From a virus, in IMG/VR virus record IMGVR_UViG_3300046313_000423, positions 1 through 50,272 of that record: a stretch of DNA of 50,272 nt. The stretch is one strand, 5' to 3'. Shown one piece after another: positions 11,100-50,272 of the stretch (its first letter is position 1; every line of letters starts with the position of its first letter). Below the pieces are notes generated by a model. The model saw only the letters and a program-made list of their open reading frames with translations. It was not told the origin of the DNA and searched no databases. Both the position numbers and the translations under genes were made by a program.

Positions 11100-13714
11100 T
11101 GTTTACAGAACAAAATGCATATGATGCTGTAATGAAGATAGCTAAAACAAAAGGTAATGTTAGAGCTGGCTTGATAGAGCGAATTTATAGACACGAAACA
11201 GGTCATTTTACATCAGGTCAATATGTAAAAACTGGATCAGCTGGTATGGAACGTGGAAGATGGCCAAAGATATCGAAAAATATTCCATACGTTACATTGA
11301 AAGATAATAAAACAAATAAGATTGTTGAATTTATCGTTTGGCAAGATACATATGATTTTTGTATATATTTATCTGATTACATAGATAGGCACGGTGGAAA
11401 TTGGGCACGGTGGAATAGTGCAAATTATTTAAGACAAAGAGACTATACAGGATTGGTTAATAATGTTAGAAATAAATGGATTAAGGGGGGTAATCCATAT
11501 TTGAATAATAATTATACTTCAAGCAATGGAACTTCTGGGAGTGACCCCCAAGTCTATTCGCCACCACCACCTATAGATAAAACGATAATTTGCAAAAAAG
11601 ACCAAACTATCCAAGAATTTATAGATGATAATAATATATTAATGTCAGTAAGTGAATTGACGCTTTATTTGACTAATTCATTGAGTATATATAAACATTA
11701 CAATCAACAACAGAAAGTAAAATATATAAAGGCAAGTGAAGAACTCATAACAACAGGGACTAAGATTTTAATACCTATGTATCAAATATCCGTGCCAAAG
11801 TCTATTTACAATATAAATCAAACAATAGTAGAAAACAGCAAATATAATGCATTTGTTGAAAAAGAAGTTAAAAAATTATTAAACAACGTAAATTACAAAA
11901 AAATAAATATATCTCAAGACGATTTAGATGGTTCAAAAGAATATGGAACATTACACAAAAAAGACAATAATGTATCAGTTTGGGTCTGGACTAAATCAAC
12001 AGATTATGATAAAGGTAGTCATTTAATAGATATAACTCCATTCATTATAGATATAACTACAAATGTTGGAGACAACGGTGGAAATTTTTCATTTTCATTG
12101 CCTCATATGACATTCGATGAATTAAAAAACGATTCAAATAGGCAATTCAATCTACCTTTAGATTGGATATTAGATGATAATTTTGAATCATTCGTAACAA
12201 AACAAACAATTCATAATGTAGTTGATTTTAATTCAAGTGATATTAAGTGCGATTTTAAAGATGACAATGATGAATTGAAATCAAATAGTCAAGTGTTACT
12301 TAGAAAGTCATCACTATTCAATTCAATATTACAAAAAAATGATGTTGTATTCATACGATTCGAAAGATTAATTGCTGATAAAGTATATTCAAATTTTACG
12401 TCAAATGAATTATTTAGAATTTCACCAAGTGATTTACCAAATAATGTTTATGATATGATTGGGTTAATAGATAATGTATCTATATCTTCACAATCAGATC
12501 AAAGTGAACAGATAGTATCTGTAGATGGTAGAGATTTAAGTAAATTATTGATTGATGATTCTATATACAATTTTATAGTTGGATTCGGAGTTCAATCCAA
12601 AGAGCAAATTCTTCAAAATTCAAATAAAAATAAATCGACTGGTAGAGTTGTCATGGAGGTTAATAAGCAAGAATTTAATGTTGGTGGTGGAATAGCTCAA
12701 GACAATGATTTTAATTTTTTTCAAACTCACTCCATAGATGAATGGATAGTATTCCTATTCAGTCAATTAACAAATACTTCAATAACTCCAGATAATTTAT
12801 TCAATTCCTATAAGGATAGGTCAATGATTACATCTAGACAAATTTCATCAAACTCTGGAGGTTTTGAATATAAGAAAACATTAGCTTCCGGAATATGGCA
12901 AATAGTGAAATTATGTTTTGATAGTGAAACTACAAAAAGAAGATTAGCAGACGATAGTTTATCGACTAACACGGGTAGTTTGATAAATATGGTTAGAAAA
13001 TATGCTCAAAAACCATTCGTAGAATTAAATATGGATACTTATGGAGATAAATATTATTTTACATTTAGAAAACCACCATTTACATATGAAAGTTTTAAAA
13101 CTAATCCTTGTATAAATATATTTGAAGGTGATGTTATTCAAGATAATTTAGACTTTGAAAGCGAATATTATTCTATGTATCAATTAGATGCGTTGGGATC
13201 ATTGATAGAATCCACAGATGGTCAAAATCTAATAGTATTGCAAGCAATATTGTTACCAGAATTTGTTGAGTTTTTCGGATTAAGGAATTTACATGTATCT
13301 TCTAATTATCTAGACTTTGATATGTCAGTGAGTAATCTCACAGAAGCTAATTTACAACATTTAATAGATCAGCACCAAGAAGATTTAGGATGGTTGATTG
13401 AGTCGAATTGCTACTTACCATTCACGAGAAAAGGCAGCATAACTATAAAGGGAGACAGAAGAATCAAAAGAGGCATGAATATAAGACACTTTGGCACTGG
13501 AGAAGTATATTATGTTGATAGTGTATCCAATACTGCTTCTTTTTCCAATACTTCAGATAGATCAACAACATTGCAAGTAAGTAGAGGAATGGTTGAAAAA
13601 GATATAGAAAAATACTTCAACATTACAAATAGAGAAAAAATTGGAGGTAAAATAAATTGGAATGTGAATAGAGATATTTTCAAATATTTAATGCAAAAAA
13701 GACAATTCAGATAA
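11099..13714 (+). CDS. Baseplate hub protein with N-terminal muralytic domain
   Basis: This 871-residue protein combines three parts. Residues 1-130 look like a lysozyme/glucosaminidase-type domain, with a catalytic-type Glu33 in IYRHETGHFTSG followed by SAGMERGRWPK. Residues about 165-230 resemble a LysM module (IICKKDQTIQEFIDDNN to ITTGTKILIPMYQ). From about residue 290 onward it reads as a beta-rich hub body (FIIDITTNVGDNGGNFSFSLP, then SVDGRDLSKLL) like gp27/gpD-type rings. It would join tube, spike and baseplate and open a local hole in peptidoglycan. It follows the tape measure and is followed by the spike, with one-base overlaps on both sides. Confidence 0.7.
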   Translation: MFTEQNAYDAVMKIAKTKGNVRAGLIERIYRHETGHFTSGQYVKTGSAGMERGRWPKISKNIPYVTLKDNKTNKIVEFIVWQDTYDFCIYLSDYIDRHGGNWARWNSANYLRQRDYTGLVNNVRNKWIKGGNPYLNNNYTSSNGTSGSDPQVYSPPPPIDKTIICKKDQTIQEFIDDNNILMSVSELTLYLTNSLSIYKHYNQQQKVKYIKASEELITTGTKILIPMYQISVPKSIYNINQTIVENSKYNAFVEKEVKKLLNNVNYKKINISQDDLDGSKEYGTLHKKDNNVSVWVWTKSTDYDKGSHLIDITPFIIDITTNVGDNGGNFSFSLPHMTFDELKNDSNRQFNLPLDWILDDNFESFVTKQTIHNVVDFNSSDIKCDFKDDNDELKSNSQVLLRKSSLFNSILQKNDVVFIRFERLIADKVYSNFTSNELFRISPSDLPNNVYDMIGLIDNVSISSQSDQSEQIVSVDGRDLSKLLIDDSIYNFIVGFGVQSKEQILQNSNKNKSTGRVVMEVNKQEFNVGGGIAQDNDFNFFQTHSIDEWIVFLFSQLTNTSITPDNLFNSYKDRSMITSRQISSNSGGFEYKKTLASGIWQIVKLCFDSETTKRRLADDSLSTNTGSLINMVRKYAQKPFVELNMDTYGDKYYFTFRKPPFTYESFKTNPCINIFEGDVIQDNLDFESEYYSMYQLDALGSLIESTDGQNLIVLQAILLPEFVEFFGLRNLHVSSNYLDFDMSVSNLTEANLQHLIDQHQEDLGWLIESNCYLPFTRKGSITIKGDRRIKRGMNIRHFGTGEVYYVDSVSNTASFSNTSDRSTTLQVSRGMVEKDIEKYFNITNREKIGGKINWNVNRDIFKYLMQKRQFR

Positions 13715-26459: not shown

Positions 26460-26503
26460 TTCTATTTTAATATCTTTAGAATAAAGCAAAAATTTGATGT
26501 TTT

Positions 26504-26590
26504 AAGTGTTGAAATTAATTAATTTAACTATTTTAGCGATATTTATCTGTCTAATTTAATTTAATGATTAATTTCAACACTTTTTATTTT
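26504..26590 (+). terminator. Large inverted repeat, end-of-module terminator
   Basis: A 16-bp perfect inverted repeat (26504-26519 with 26567-26582; core AGTGTTGAAATTAAT/ATTAATTTCAACACT) is separated by a 47-nt A+T-rich loop and followed by TTTTTATTTTT. It lies 44 bp after the last structural gene and closes the virion module. The loop is longer than in a simple terminator, so it may also act in both directions or bind a protein. Confidence 0.75.
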
Positions 26591-26798
26591 TGCGTGATTT
26601 ATTTTTATGGTATATGTTTTGATTTTTTAAAATTTCATTTGATTCTATTTTGAAACAAAGTTTTTAAGGGTGTTGGGTGGGTTCATGAAAAGCTTATTAA
26701 TACTAATAGCTTTAATAAAGCCAACTACTGTTCTTTTAGAAAAAGAACCAAAACTAATAATAGCATTGTCGTGCATAAAATAAAAATCAACTTGAAAT
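26583..26798 (+). other. Non-coding junction before the replication module
   Basis: About 215 bp lie between the terminator and the first replication gene. Visible elements are a patch with three G-triplets (26668-26670, 26675-26677, 26679-26681), an inverted repeat AAAGCT/AGCTTT (26689-26694 and 26708-26713) overlapping GCTTT-AAT-AAAGC (26709-26721), and an 8-bp hairpin GTTCTTTT/AAAAGAAC (26730-26737 with 26741-26748, 3-nt loop). The overlapping hairpins could switch between forms. The region probably holds the promoter for the helicase-primase genes; I found no convincing match to the flavobacterial TTG/TAnnTTTG promoter. Confidence 0.55.
26685..26783 (+). CDS. Doubtful mini-ORF, possible leader peptide
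   Basis: A 32-codon frame starts at ATG 26685 and ends at TAA 26781. It encodes an apolar peptide (MKSLLILIALIKPTTVLLEK and so on). It ends 15 bp before the helicase gene and spans two hairpins. That arrangement could be a leader peptide or small membrane peptide, but an ORF this short may arise by chance in such sequence. Confidence 0.25.
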   Translation: MKSLLILIALIKPTTVLLEKEPKLIIALSCIK

Positions 26799-28953: not shown

Positions 28954-30280
28954 TAAATTAACAGGCGACTTCATATTACAATTATTCCACAGTTGCGTTA
29001 TAAATAGAACAATTTTTGAATTAGTTGTTGAAAATGTCAAAGAAAATTGGCTACCAGAAGAAAAACAAAGAAAATATCTATCAGAATTGCATAAATTGAA
29101 GGAAAAAGGTGCAAAGAAGATAATGTGGAGCGTATTTGAATTAGAATTCAGGAAAGAAAAAAATTTAAAAGATTACGCAAAACAAATACAAGATTATGAC
29201 TTAGAATACAATGAAGAGTTGATGATACAAACTCTTGAAGAATTCATAAAAAATTCAAAATTCATAGAATTGTATGATAAAACTTATGAAATATACAACA
29301 CTGGAGATAAATCAAAGGCATATAAGCTCTTAATAAGTAAGGCAGATGATTTGTCCAAATTTAGCTTGACAGGTGTCGATGATTTAATGTCTGTATTTGG
29401 AGATTTTAATAAGCGAAACACTGAAAGAATAATTGATAAGTCTATCAACACTATTGAAAAATTTCCATTTGGCATTGATGAATTAGATAGAATAACACAT
29501 GGTGGTTGCGAAAGAGGTGAATTCATTATGTTTGTCGGTGACGCAAAGTCTGGTAAATCTATATGTTTGATACATTGTGGTATAAATGCAGCTAGAAGAG
29601 GTGTTGGTGTATTACACTTCCAACTTGAAGGAACAAAAAAACAAGTTATGCAAAGATACGATTCAAGTTGGTCTGGGTCATTTTATTACGATGTCAAAGA
29701 AGCTCAAATGGCTGATAGTAAATTTGAAGATCACAAAAAGATTGTATCAAAACTTGGTAAGACAGATATTTGGATAGATTGCCCAGAAAAATTCTTAGCA
29801 AGATCAGTCGTAGACATAAGAAGAAAAATAATTGAAGTTAAGAAAACAAGAAAATTAGGAGTTGTAATAGTAGATTACTTGGATTTAGCAAATCCAGATG
29901 GTGAAAAATATTCATCTGGAGATGAAAGACATAGGCAACAAAAGGCATCAAGAATGTTAAAGGATTTAGCAGTAGAGCAAGACATTGCAATAATAACAGC
30001 AACTCAATCATCATCTATATCCAAAGAATTATTAGATGATCCTGACTTCGTCATAACAAGAGAACATTTAGCAGAAGATAAAGGTAAGGTCAGACCAGTA
30101 GATATGTTAATATCCATTAATAGAACACCAGATGAAAGAAAAACAAAAATAGCTAGATTATATTGCGATGCATTGAGAGAACACGATTCTGGTCAAGTTA
30201 TAAAAATAAAACAGAACCTTTCTAGAACTAGATTCTATGACAGAAAAGCAACATTGAATCTAATAATGGATGAAGAGTAA
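28946..30280 (+). CDS. dnaB: DnaB-like replicative helicase
   Basis: In this 444-residue protein the N-terminal domain (1-140) is helical, with a linker at about 140-175. The RecA-like core begins with FPFGIDELDRITHGGCERGE, Walker A GDAKSGKS at 198-205, a QLEGTKKQVMQRY segment, Walker B GVVIVDYLDLA, and the H-motif-like IAIITATQSS. The Arg finger region is near FVITREHLAEDKGKVRPVDM. It unwinds the fork in the 5'-3' direction together with the primase encoded next. Length matches T4 gp41 and DnaB (about 450-475). The stop overlaps the primase start (TAATG). Confidence 0.9.
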   Translation: MNDKLTGDFILQLFHSCVINRTIFELVVENVKENWLPEEKQRKYLSELHKLKEKGAKKIMWSVFELEFRKEKNLKDYAKQIQDYDLEYNEELMIQTLEEFIKNSKFIELYDKTYEIYNTGDKSKAYKLLISKADDLSKFSLTGVDDLMSVFGDFNKRNTERIIDKSINTIEKFPFGIDELDRITHGGCERGEFIMFVGDAKSGKSICLIHCGINAARRGVGVLHFQLEGTKKQVMQRYDSSWSGSFYYDVKEAQMADSKFEDHKKIVSKLGKTDIWIDCPEKFLARSVVDIRRKIIEVKKTRKLGVVIVDYLDLANPDGEKYSSGDERHRQQKASRMLKDLAVEQDIAIITATQSSSISKELLDDPDFVITREHLAEDKGKVRPVDMLISINRTPDERKTKIARLYCDALREHDSGQVIKIKQNLSRTRFYDRKATLNLIMDEE

Positions 30281-31245
30281 TGATATCTGAACAACAGCTC
30301 AAAGATTTATTAAATAAGCCTAAGAACGCTTCAAGGAAACATTTTGTTGCAACTTGTATATTTGATGAATGTCAAAAAGAAAATCATTTTTTCATAAATA
30401 AAGAAACAGGTCTTTGGGATTGTAAAAAGTGTGGCAAAGATGGTAATATTTTCACTTTCTTAGCAAAAGTTGGAGCATTACATTTATTACAAGGTAATAT
30501 AATAGATGACAGAGAAAGATTAACAAAATTTGATTTTCAACAATCGATTGATCAACAATCATATGAAGATTTTGCGATTGAAAATAAAAAATTACCAATC
30601 GGTTCAAAAGATTTTAAAAAAGATTCAAGCGAATACAAATACTTACTTTCCAGAAAATTCAATGAAATAGACTTTGAATTATATCAACCAAAATCAACCA
30701 AGATAAAAAAAGTATTTAAAGATTATGTAATATTACCTTTGATTCAAGACTTTGAAATAAAAGGTTATGTTGGCAGATATATAGGGAAAGACGATAACCA
30801 ACCAAGATATAGAAATTCAAAAGACACTGAATTTAGTAAATTATTAGGTGGATTTGATGAGATCAACAACAAAACAAACACCTTGATATTAGTTGAAGGA
30901 TACTTTGACAAAATATCAGTAACGTCAGAGTTAGAATTACATTATGTCGATGAATTGAAATGTTGTTGTACATTTGGTAAAAAAATTTCAGATTACCAAA
31001 TATGGTTGATTTTGAATAAAACAAATATCAAAAATATAATATTAATGTTTGATGCTAGAGATGCTGTAAATGATATGAAGAAATTCGCCTTTGAATTATT
31101 AAAATATTTCAATACACAAATAGCGGACACTGGTTACGACAATGATCCAGGTACGTTGTCTAAAAAAGAATTTGGAGAAATTTTACATAATTTACAAACC
31201 CCAAATCAATTTTGGTTAAATAAAATACAAAAGAAAAAATTTTAA
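30280..31245 (+). CDS. dnaG: DnaG-like DNA primase
   Basis: This 321-residue protein makes RNA primers for lagging-strand synthesis. The zinc-binding N-terminus has C26, C31, C48 and C51 within TCIFDECQ and WDCKKCGKDGNIFTFL. The TOPRIM core shows LILVEGYFDK with E206-G207 and the acidic FDARDAVND at about 257-265. Primases of this size (T4 gp61 342, T7 N-terminal half) lack the DnaG C-terminal helicase-binding domain, as here. It is coupled to the DnaB-like gene. The stop is followed by a 148-bp gap holding the first 78-bp repeat. Confidence 0.9.
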   Translation: MISEQQLKDLLNKPKNASRKHFVATCIFDECQKENHFFINKETGLWDCKKCGKDGNIFTFLAKVGALHLLQGNIIDDRERLTKFDFQQSIDQQSYEDFAIENKKLPIGSKDFKKDSSEYKYLLSRKFNEIDFELYQPKSTKIKKVFKDYVILPLIQDFEIKGYVGRYIGKDDNQPRYRNSKDTEFSKLLGGFDEINNKTNTLILVEGYFDKISVTSELELHYVDELKCCCTFGKKISDYQIWLILNKTNIKNIILMFDARDAVNDMKKFAFELLKYFNTQIADTGYDNDPGTLSKKEFGEILHNLQTPNQFWLNKIQKKKF

Positions 31246-31263
31246 TGATCTTATATATTGTGT

Positions 31264-31341
31264 AAATACAAGCATTTTAAAAATAATTTAAAATTTTATA
31301 CATAAAAATTTTTATTATACAAAAACAAATTAGATATTAGC
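31264..31341 (+). repeat. 78-bp A+T-rich intergenic repeat, copy 1
   Basis: This stretch matches 49585-49662 at 77 of 78 positions; the only difference is C31273 versus G49594. It contains an 8-bp inverted repeat ATTTTAAA/TTTAAAAT (31274-31281 and 31287-31294) and a 14-bp palindrome ATAAAAATTTTTAT (31302-31315). It ends 52 bp before the start of the winged-helix gene. Both copies stand upstream of a gene with the same orientation, so it is most likely a promoter with operator sites; an origin element is a second possibility. Confidence 0.9.
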
Positions 31342-31393
31342 GGTATAGAAACGGAACAATCCGTAAATGTTAAACAACTAAATTTAATGTAAA
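31316..31393 (+). promoter_or_regulatory. Probable promoter tail and 5' leader of the winged-helix gene
   Basis: The last bases of the repeat (TATACAAAAACAAATTAGATATTAGC, 31316-31341 region) lead into a 52-nt leader. The leader contains a small hairpin ACGGA-ACAA-TCCGT at 31351-31364. No host-type TTG/TAnnTTTG promoter is clear, so recognition by a phage factor is possible. The promoter call rests on repeat conservation and position. Confidence 0.45.
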
Positions 31394-32179
31394 ATGAAAA
31401 AATCAGTAAAAAAAGTAGAAGAAGTGAAAAACGAATTGCAAGTAGCAAATTTCACTCCAAAGGAAGAAAAGGTAATCATTAACTTGACACCAAAAGAAGA
31501 AATTGTTTTGAATGCTTTAATCGATTCATTAACTGCTGAAGCAGGATTTAGTGATATTGATTGTAATGATTTATCACAGTCTACAAAATTACCAGTAGCT
31601 ACTGTTAAAGCATTAGTTGGCTCATTGACCAAAAAAGAATTGGTTTTTACAGACAAAACTACAACTTCTGGAGCGAAACATTACGATTTGATATATTTAG
31701 CACCATTTGCTTGGATTTTACACCCAGAGTGGAAGGAAGAAGCAGAACATGCAATTGAGGTTAATGTGATTCAAGATTTAAGCGTTGATAAATTGGTAAA
31801 GGTTGATAAAATAAAAAAATCTGTGGTTAAGTCTATGAATGACTCTGATGATAAATCATTCGATAATTTTAAAGGCGAGGAATCTAAAGTAAATAAGCCA
31901 TATGGTGTATACGGTAAACACGGTGAGAATATAGAGATCGAGAACTTTAAAAGAGGAGATTTAATATCATTCACAGCTGGTGATAAGAATATGGTTGGGG
32001 AGTTTGTACACTTTCATGTAAATAATTGGTCTAAAAAGGGATACGCTGTGATCAAGTCTGAAGGTAAGATTTATGAAAGAGTTTTGGCAAATATTTCAAA
32101 ATTCAAAGAGGTTAAAAAGGCTTCAAAAAAGACCGTTGAGGTAAAAACAACTACTCTGAAGAAAAAATTGCAAAAATAA
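31394..32179 (+). CDS. Winged-helix DNA-binding protein with SH3-like C-terminus
   Basis: This 261-residue protein has a winged-helix/HTH segment at about residues 30-105 (LTPKEEIVLNALIDSLTA, then TKLPVATVKALVGSLTKKEL). It resembles MarR- or IclR-type regulators in layout. A second domain, about 180-240, is a small beta barrel (FKRGDLISFTAGDKNMVGEF, then KSEGKIYERVLANISKF). The C-terminus is lysine-rich. It lies alone between the 78-bp repeat and a strong terminator, so it is likely a separately expressed regulator or nucleoid-like protein. No family name can be given. Confidence 0.65.
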   Translation: MKKSVKKVEEVKNELQVANFTPKEEKVIINLTPKEEIVLNALIDSLTAEAGFSDIDCNDLSQSTKLPVATVKALVGSLTKKELVFTDKTTTSGAKHYDLIYLAPFAWILHPEWKEEAEHAIEVNVIQDLSVDKLVKVDKIKKSVVKSMNDSDDKSFDNFKGEESKVNKPYGVYGKHGENIEIENFKRGDLISFTAGDKNMVGEFVHFHVNNWSKKGYAVIKSEGKIYERVLANISKFKEVKKASKKTVEVKTTTLKKKLQK

Positions 32180-32192
32180 TCAAAAGTAGAAA

Positions 32193-32228
32193 AAAGACCT
32201 CCTTACTATGTTCAGGAGGTCTTTAATT
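32193..32228 (+). terminator. Terminator after the winged-helix gene
   Basis: An 11-bp perfect stem AAAGACCTCCT/AGGAGGTCTTT (32193-32203 with 32214-32224) has a 10-nt loop. It is A-flanked on the left and T-ended on the right, so it may work in both directions. It isolates the winged-helix gene from the sigma-like gene that follows. Confidence 0.9.
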
Positions 32229-32251: not shown

Positions 32252-32863
32252 ATGAATATTAAACCAACTTCAGCAATACAAAAATTATATGACAAGTATG
32301 AATATATGTCTAAAAATTACGCAGAAAAAATCTTCAATTATCAAAGGTATGGATATGAAAAAGAAGATATAATACAAGAATTTCGCATAAAAATTTACAC
32401 ATCAATAATTACATATTCAGAAAAGTGGGCTGAATATAAAAACACTGGAAAATACAAACCAGTGCCGATAGAATTTTATCTAAAAACAGCCATGGTAAAT
32501 AAAGTTAAAGACTTTATTAAATTATTTAATATGGATTTAGTTGAAAATATTGACAAAATATCTATAGAAAATGATGGGTTTGACTACGGTGAAAGTAATA
32601 CAATCACTTCAGTAATGAGTTTATCAGATAATATTTGCGAAATAAATGGAGTTGATATCTTTCAAGGTTTAATCGGTAGAAAGAAAACAATATTCAGCGA
32701 TTATTTAAGTGGGTTCACAATAAGAGAATTGACTCAAAAATATCCAAGCATCAATATTGAAGCAGTGGTAAGCAATCAAATTGAAATATTGAATCAATAT
32801 AAAGATAGACTTTTAGATTATTCAAAATCAACATATTCATTAGTTGATCAATTTGAAGATTAA
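32252..32863 (+). CDS. Sigma-factor-like protein (first of two)
   Basis: This 203-residue protein resembles sigma-70 region 2: residues 15-95 hold YEYMSKNYAEKIFNYQRYGY, EKEDIIQEFRIKIYTSI (EDI..E is the core-binding signature) and FYLKTAMVNKVKDFIKLF. The C-terminal part has a possible region-4-like helix-turn-helix (about 155-185, SGFTIRELTQKYPSINIEAV). Phage sigma factors of this size, such as T4 gp55 (185 residues), direct RNA polymerase to late promoters. The gene is flanked by two terminators and an A-rich leader. A recombination or structural role cannot be excluded without a search. Confidence 0.6.
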   Translation: MNIKPTSAIQKLYDKYEYMSKNYAEKIFNYQRYGYEKEDIIQEFRIKIYTSIITYSEKWAEYKNTGKYKPVPIEFYLKTAMVNKVKDFIKLFNMDLVENIDKISIENDGFDYGESNTITSVMSLSDNICEINGVDIFQGLIGRKKTIFSDYLSGFTIRELTQKYPSINIEAVVSNQIEILNQYKDRLLDYSKSTYSLVDQFED

Positions 32864-45668: not shown

Positions 45669-46111
45669 TAATAGGTATTGATCCAGGAAAAGAAGGTGGA
45701 ATAGCTGTAATAAATAATGGTATTTTAGTCATAAAAAAGATGCCATCAACTCCAAAAGAAATATTTGACACTTTGAAAATGTTCAAGATGTTAAGTAAAG
45801 GAGATATTTATTGTTACCTTGAAAAAGTCCAAGGATTACCGAAAATGTCAGGAGCTGGAATGTTTACATTCGGTCAAGGATTTGGTTGGTTACAGATGGC
45901 TCTATTATCATTAGAAATACCTACTGAACAAGTTACTCCACAAAAGTGGCAAAAAGAATTTCAACTTGGAACAAAAGGAGAACAAACAACATCAGTTTGG
46001 AAAAATAAGATGAAGAATAAAGCAGAACAATTATATCCAAAGAATAAGATGTTTCTTTGGGGTTCAGACGCTGTTCTAATTGCAGAATACGGGAGAAGAA
46101 ATAAAAAATAA
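45665..46111 (+). CDS. RuvC-like Holliday-junction resolvase
   Basis: This 148-residue RNase-H-fold nuclease has an N-terminal GIDPG with D6, a second acidic site E53 in YLEKVQG, and a C-terminal SDAVLIAEYG with D135 and E141. The spacing fits the RuvC acidic triad or tetrad, and the QxTPQKWQKEFQ segment resembles RuvC-like phage resolvases. It probably cleaves four-way junctions before packaging. It overlaps the gp46-like gene by 4 bp. Confidence 0.85.
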   Translation: MIIGIDPGKEGGIAVINNGILVIKKMPSTPKEIFDTLKMFKMLSKGDIYCYLEKVQGLPKMSGAGMFTFGQGFGWLQMALLSLEIPTEQVTPQKWQKEFQLGTKGEQTTSVWKNKMKNKAEQLYPKNKMFLWGSDAVLIAEYGRRNKK

Positions 46112-49571: not shown

Positions 49572-49584
49572 TCAAAGTTATACG

Positions 49585-49662
49585 AAATACAAGGATTTTA
49601 AAAATAATTTAAAATTTTATACATAAAAATTTTTATTATACAAAAACAAATTAGATATTAGC
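49585..49662 (+). repeat. 78-bp A+T-rich intergenic repeat, copy 2
   Basis: The second copy matches 31264-31341 at 77 of 78 positions. It keeps both the inverted repeat (49595-49602 with 49608-49615) and the 14-bp palindrome (49623-49636). It lies 40 bp before the start of the repeat-protein gene, so it likely carries that gene's promoter. The two copies stand 18.3 kb apart in the same orientation. Confidence 0.9.
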
Positions 49663-49702
49663 CATAATAAAATAGAAATATAAATGCTAAAAACACAAAA
49701 TC

Positions 49703-50272
49703 ATGAAAAATCTAACATTCTCAGGAGATTCAACATTAAAACAATCATTATTAGAAAATCTAAAGCAACACCAAGATTTAGATGCCTTTATTCAGGGAAC
49801 TTGGATCAGAAAAGATCAAATAATTGACGGTGGTCATTTCAAAGGTTGTTTTTACGGTTGTACTATGCAAACAACTGATGATCCAATATTAGCTTTTTCG
49901 CAAAAGTATAACATAGATTTATGGTATTGTCACTTGACTGAAAAGATATTTGAAGGTTTACCAGATGGCGAGTATCAAAAATTCCCATATGAATCCATAG
50001 ATATATTGCCAGTAAGTTTCGACTTTAATGTATTAAAATCATCGTTCAATAAATCTATTTTATTAAAACAATTAGATTGGATTAAAGACGATAATGTTAG
50101 AAAAATCCTAGAGCAAACCTCCGAGTTATTTGATGTTCCATTCGATAAAATTGATATACAAGAAGCAAGGTCAGCAGCGTGGTCAGCAGAGTCAGCAGCA
50201 AGGTCATCAGCGTGGTCAGCAGAGTCAGCAGAGTCAGCAGCAAGGTCAGCAGCAAGGTCATCAGCGTGGTCA
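49703..50272 (+). CDS. Protein with Ser-Ala-Ala-Trp/Arg repeats, cut by the window edge
   Basis: An open frame runs from ATG 49703 past the right edge (190 codons visible). The N-terminal 150 residues look globular, with AFIQGTWIRKDQIIDGG, HFKGCFYGCTMQ and YNIDLWYCHLTEKIFEGLP. From about residue 154 the sequence becomes short repeats of SAAR, SAAW, SSAW and SAE. This kind of protein, a small globular head and long SA-rich repeats, occurs in bacteria and phages but has no function known to me. It stands behind its own copy of the 78-bp repeat, so it may be expressed separately. The end is unknown. Confidence 0.85.
   Translation, partial: MKNLTFSGDSTLKQSLLENLKQHQDLDAFIQGTWIRKDQIIDGGHFKGCFYGCTMQTTDDPILAFSQKYNIDLWYCHLTEKIFEGLPDGEYQKFPYESIDILPVSFDFNVLKSSFNKSILLKQLDWIKDDNVRKILEQTSELFDVPFDKIDIQEARSAAWSAESAARSSAWSAESAESAARSAARSSAWS
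50164..50272 (+). repeat. Tandem 9- and 12-bp repeats encoding SAAW/SAAR/SAE units
   Basis: The last 109 bp are built from units such as TCAGCAGCGTGG, TCAGCAGCAAGG and TCAGCAGAG in irregular order. They are more G+C-rich than the rest of the window. All units keep the reading frame (SAAW, SAAR, SSAW or SAE). The tract continues past the window edge. Confidence 0.9.

Follow-up and report, generated by a model that had tools for sequence, protein, structure and literature searches.

Genomic context of the repeated element

The window, that is, the whole analysed stretch of 50,272 nucleotides, contains two copies of a 78-bp element, each located in a gap between genes (Table 1). The interval between the primase gene (30280-31245) and the sigma-like gene holds copy 1, and the first gene behind this copy encodes a 261-aa protein. 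The winged-helix-like domain of this protein has a homologue (E 4e-12) at 65080-65373 of the related genome G003, where a gene pair stands behind a promoter copy at 64773 and its second member carries the domain. The hairpin that follows gene 31394 is absent from the consensus terminator list. It is nevertheless strong, so the transcription unit of copy 1 may comprise this one gene, with read-through into the sigma-like gene. The product of the sigma-like gene is a weakly supported candidate sigma factor: 6 of 8 orthologues give weak matches to the Pfam family Sigma70_r2, the best with E 0.001, and no solid PDB match was obtained. At 50161-50272, gene 49703 carries a run of SAWSAES/SAARSS-type repeats within which the window ends, and it is at this repeat that the assembly probably stopped. 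Upstream of the replication module, a 339-bp gap (26460-26798) separates it from the tail module and contains an imperfect inverted repeat at 26504-26582; TAGCATTG is found close to the start of gene 26799.

Table 1. Features at and around the two copies of the element (positions in the window)
Feature	Position	Strand	Remarks
Copy 1 of the putative 78-bp promoter element	31264-31341	+	77/78 with copy 2; syntenic equivalents in 7 relatives
A/T-rich upstream tract, UP-element-like, copy 1	31264-31309	+	best-conserved part of the relatives' profile
-33 box position, copy 1: TTTT	31310-31313	+	mostly TTTG in relatives; ungapped register, 19-bp spacer
-7 box position, copy 1: GATATTAG	31333-31340	+	ungapped register; 4/6 of consensus TAnnTTTG
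Predicted transcription start A, copy 1	31345	+	from F. psychrophilum -7 spacing (PMC9723704)
261-aa gene behind copy 1, winged-helix-like N-terminal domain	31394-32179	+	homologous domain in G003
Terminator-like hairpin, 11 pairs, behind gene 31394	32193-32224	+	-16 kcal/mol, z -3.9
Sigma-like gene	32252-32863	+	orthologue directly behind promoter in G002, G003, G006, G007
Copy 2 of the putative 78-bp promoter element	49585-49662	+	77/78 with copy 1
-33 box position, copy 2: TTTT	49631-49634	+	like copy 1
-7 box position, copy 2: GATATTAG	49654-49661	+	ungapped register
Predicted transcription start A, copy 2	49666	+	from the same spacing
Gene behind copy 2, runs past window end	49703-50272	+	unique N-terminal part, then SAWSAES-type repeats

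Among named phages, the best relatives of the window are the Chryseobacterium phage MA9V-3 (103 kb) and Bacteroides phages, for example SJC03, and its replication and tail genes match families of T4-like and Bacteroidota phages. It belongs to a Bacteroidota-type myophage genome of ~100 kb. The relatives used for comparison are IMG/VR contigs reached through the UvrD-like helicase. The group with the same gene order comprises G003 (101 kb), G004 (94 kb) and G005 (97 kb), as well as the partial G002, G006, G007 and G008. Since the relatives with this gene order reach ~100 kb, the window corresponds to roughly half a genome, and it ends at the beginning of the early-type region. Just two copies of the element are in hand, because the remaining genome is missing from the record.

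A 4.7-kb contig from another sample (L003, IMGVR_UViG_3300046336_000046) is nearly 100% identical to the window at ~38.2-42.9 kb, so the same phage occurs elsewhere. It was the only near-identical relative recovered by single-protein patterns, and it does not reach the element. The exact 38-base core of the element is absent from IMG/VR and from 84,980 genomes, a relaxed pattern over its right half gave no match, and neither did blastn of the element against named phages. The very sequence of the element is therefore known solely from this record. Rfam returned no match in the window.

Anatomy of the two copies

The preliminary description reported two non-coding copies agreeing at 77 of 78 bases, and both coordinates and identity are exact; the sole mismatch is C31273/G49594. 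In a self-BLAST of the window, copy 1 matches copy 2 with E = 2e-33, far beyond chance, and neither this comparison nor a direct search finds a third copy in the 50,272-base record. The element is 88% A+T and lies in the gaps 31246-31393 and 49572-49702. On the + strand, 52 bp separate the end of copy 1 from ATG 31394 and 40 bp separate the end of copy 2 from ATG 49703, as described earlier. Outside the 78 bp, the flanks of the copies are unrelated, except for scattered A-rich similarity in the leaders.

A 14-bp palindrome (ATAAAAATTTTTAT) and an 8-bp inverted repeat, also noted earlier, are present in the element, but a shuffle test does not support their proposed role as operator parts. A palindrome at least as long occurs in 13.5% of dinucleotide shuffles (P = 0.135) and an inverted repeat at least as long in 68% (P = 0.68). 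Because both are at chance level for an A+T-rich sequence, the operator-like anatomy is unsupported. Significant inverted repeats common to the copies, as a palindromic operator needs, are absent, and the palindrome and the inverted repeat are not conserved in the relatives.

The primary sigma factor of Bacteroidota recognises two boxes, TTTG near -33 and TAnnTTTG at -12 to -5 (PMC9723704, PMC7366714); the latter is also the position of the -7 box in F. psychrophilum (PMC9723704). In both window copies TTTT stands at the exact place of the -33 box, ~19 bp upstream of the -7 box, and matches three of the four bases of TTTG. The -7 position, GATATTAG, departs from the consensus TAnnTTTG, which most relatives carry in the same register. 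The core boxes of the window are thus degenerate. Both copies have an adenine at the position predicted for the start, some 5 nt downstream of the -7 box. The earlier remark that no host-type promoter motif is obvious holds for motifs of the E. coli type, as a scan for sigma-70 promoters of that type gave hits no more numerous than in shuffles. As to the Bacteroidota type, the copies are in exact register with the -33/-7 promoters of the relatives, albeit with degenerate boxes.

Other motifs were noticed in the gaps between genes. The window contains the octamer CAAAGTTA 8 times on its + strand, and 4 of these sites (32871, 33985, 40307 and 49573) fall in the non-coding 3%, each in a gap before a gene, with 0.25 expected. 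Read on the minus strand, its complement TAACTTTG matches a -7 box perfectly, and the octamer is possibly a leader motif or a second promoter class. The same trend is seen in the whole G003 and G004 records (loci L094-L104), where minus-strand TAnnTTTG, which appears as CAAAnnTA along the coding strand, is more frequent outside genes than expected (21 vs 5.1 expected in G003, 14 vs 5.4 in G004).

Equivalents in related phages

The interval between the primase and sigma-like genes, where copy 1 is located, contains one promoter-like element in all seven relatives that span it. Aligned on their right ends without gaps, these elements consist of an A/T tract, TTTG at -33, 19 bp and a TAnnTTTG-type -7 box; the pattern TTTG-19-TAnnTTTG/A/C fits the Bacteroidota consensus (PMC7366714, PMC9723704). 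The distance from the -7 box to the ATG is 25-59 nt in every listed copy except one. BLAST with each relative's element returned at least two further copies per genome in 7 of 7, on the + strand, directly before genes and all beyond the UvrD helicase gene, and each relative has 3-6 copies. None of the syntenic relatives has an element straight after UvrD, where copy 2 lies, so the place of copy 2 is not conserved. The genes behind the relatives' copies include the sigma-like gene, a second UvrD-like helicase (G003 79262) and many small accessory genes.

These equivalents bear on the idea that the repeat arose by a recent duplication due to chance, or is an effect of assembly, and has no function. 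The record holds just two copies, and repeats can cause wrong contig joins. Assemblies can also break at promoter-copy elements: in G006 (L113-L115), a 119-bp copy at oriented positions 45692-45810 lies at the exact contig end and is 99% identical to 12503-12621. A chimeric join at the repeat is possible, yet a wrong join would mispair a copy with its upstream gene rather than create copies, and two copies before two genes would still stand. As seven relatives have an equivalent at the syntenic place plus copies of their own, and the same pattern recurs in 25 of 71 loci of a wider survey (below), a functionless origin is very improbable.

The relatives also allow the -7 box to be compared. In G004, the box is GAATTTAG in all four copies, and its two departures from TAnnTTTG are identical to those of GATATTAG in the window; GAnnTTAGC is moreover enriched outside genes in G004 (4 vs 0.7 expected). 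Since the sigma-like gene also adjoins the promoter in relatives, a phage-specific promoter class may be considered, in which a GAnnTTAG -7 box is read by RNA polymerase carrying the phage's own sigma-like protein (32252) or aided by the winged-helix protein (31394). This account is unlikely: G002, G003, G005, G006 and G008 keep a plain TAnnTTTG although they have the same sigma-like gene, the homology to sigma factors is weak, and placement in the early region suits the host sigma. The narrower version, in which the drifted box of the window phage and G004 marks a class read only with the sigma-like protein encoded at the same promoter site, appears a shade less likely still. If true, it would amount to a self-reinforcing early switch, with copies and reader co-evolving while sister phages keep the host-type box.

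Profile tests and wider survey

A profile was built from the relatives alone, without the window sequence. On the window, it gives the two copies the two highest scores of the + strand, and they come third and fourth among the 100,374 positions of both strands. The predicted register was the best of 61, and 0.4-0.5% of shuffles of the region attain the profile score. With the A/T tract part (columns 0-54), both copies rank first on the + strand; with the core only (columns 30-76), they rank merely 1252nd and 408th. The profile signal comes from the A/T tract, and support rests on this tract, the register and the position. In leave-one-out scans of G003, G004 and G005, 4-7 sites scored higher than the best site on the minus strand. 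Nearly all of them are non-coding and precede an ATG by 23-44 nt; although these profiles exclude the genome's own copies, they recover the same sites. A BLAST likeness of the element to an unrelated phage (L036) was first suggestive but proved weak, as 2.7% of shuffles equalled the direct match, and it was therefore not used as main evidence.

The survey covered 71 other non-redundant UvrD-bearing viral loci and considered dispersed, non-coding repeats of 30-150 bp. Such repeats were found in 25 loci, with 79 copies. On the + strand, 87% of these copies end at most 60 nt from a start, compared with 42% of non-coding places picked at random. A -7-like box is present in 77% of the copies, compared with 27% in the control. 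Pairs of copies were co-oriented in 104 cases and opposed in 1. Mean identity was 70% within a genome, a figure inflated because the copies were first found by mutual similarity, against 54% at the same syntenic place between genomes. Near-identical, co-oriented copies just before genes, as expected of a dispersed repeated promoter set, are found in the window, in the relatives and in the survey.

The second option of the preliminary description, an origin or recombination element, loses ground on these data. A recombination, packaging or replication-origin element lying between genes by chance could explain a near-perfect, A+T-rich repeat with copies 18 kb apart, in a phage that encodes a UvsX-like recombinase together with SbcC-like proteins. 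It does not account for the strict co-orientation with genes, the constant distance to the ATG, the end at the -7 box or the several copies per genome in relatives, and neither the palindrome nor the inverted repeat of the element exceeds chance. Such a role is highly doubtful.

A probable dispersed early-type promoter

The main proposal of the preliminary description, a shared promoter set that was recently duplicated or is under selection, is supported by the elements of the seven relatives, the profile test and the survey. Quite probably, the 78-bp repeats are copies of a dispersed early-type promoter cassette, set across a ~100-kb Bacteroidota phage and homogenised within the genome. The cassette would combine an A/T-rich upstream tract, a -33 box, a 19-bp spacer and a -7 box. 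The predicted transcription starts are near A31345 and A49666, so that gene 31394 would have a leader of ~49 nt and gene 49703 one of ~37 nt. The reader would most likely be RNA polymerase with the primary sigma factor of Bacteroidota. It is proposed that the A/T tract aids the polymerase, given the weakness of the core boxes.

The phage would carry a small set of near-identical, co-oriented copies, one at the junction of the primase and sigma-like genes and the others before genes of the early-type region. We infer early timing for the genes behind the copies from their location and kind. Duplication and recombination may keep the copies alike within each genome (concerted evolution), and copies kept alike would allow a set of takeover genes to be switched on together. 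The simplest account is that the host reads these early promoters, as host-type boxes are retained in five of the seven relatives; judging by sequence, the boxes of most relatives should be readable by host sigma-A. The element is best read as real and functional-looking, an ordinary kind of promoter whose sequence itself has no other record.

Significance and comparison with known systems

Bacteroidota phage promoters are poorly mapped, and the literature searched gave no description of early promoters in these phages. One conserved place in eight phages, with a sequence common within but not between phages, offers a comparative finder for early-type promoters in uncultured phages. The element may also serve as a natural example of a promoter set in concerted evolution, and its copies point to genes that are probably co-regulated: the sigma-like gene, the winged-helix gene, the second UvrD and small accessory genes.

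Compared with the Bacteroidota primary-sigma promoters of Bacteroides and Flavobacterium (-33 TTTG / -7 TAnnTTTG; PMC7366714, PMC9723704), the element has the same two-box spacing, in register. The relatives match the consensus, and both window copies have an A at the predicted start, whereas the window boxes (TTTT; GATATTAG) are degenerate and lie inside a long A/T tract repeated nearly verbatim. The cultured Chryseobacterium phage MA9V-3 (PV245944.1) is related and has the same gene order and a repeat family of its own, CTGTTGTCT ... TACCTTTAC, placed before genes of the region following the replication module and carrying TACCTTTA-type boxes. Its family differs from the element in sequence and has little A/T tract.

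Early promoters of T4-type phages are strong and similar to one another, and have spread as short cassettes before accessory genes. Arbiol et al. (2010; cited in PMC4177764) reportedly described 'mobile regulatory cassettes' in these phages. The present element belongs to another promoter class, has no stem-loop in the repeat and is only putatively mobile, but it resembles the T4-type early promoters in forming short, putative promoter cassettes before accessory genes.
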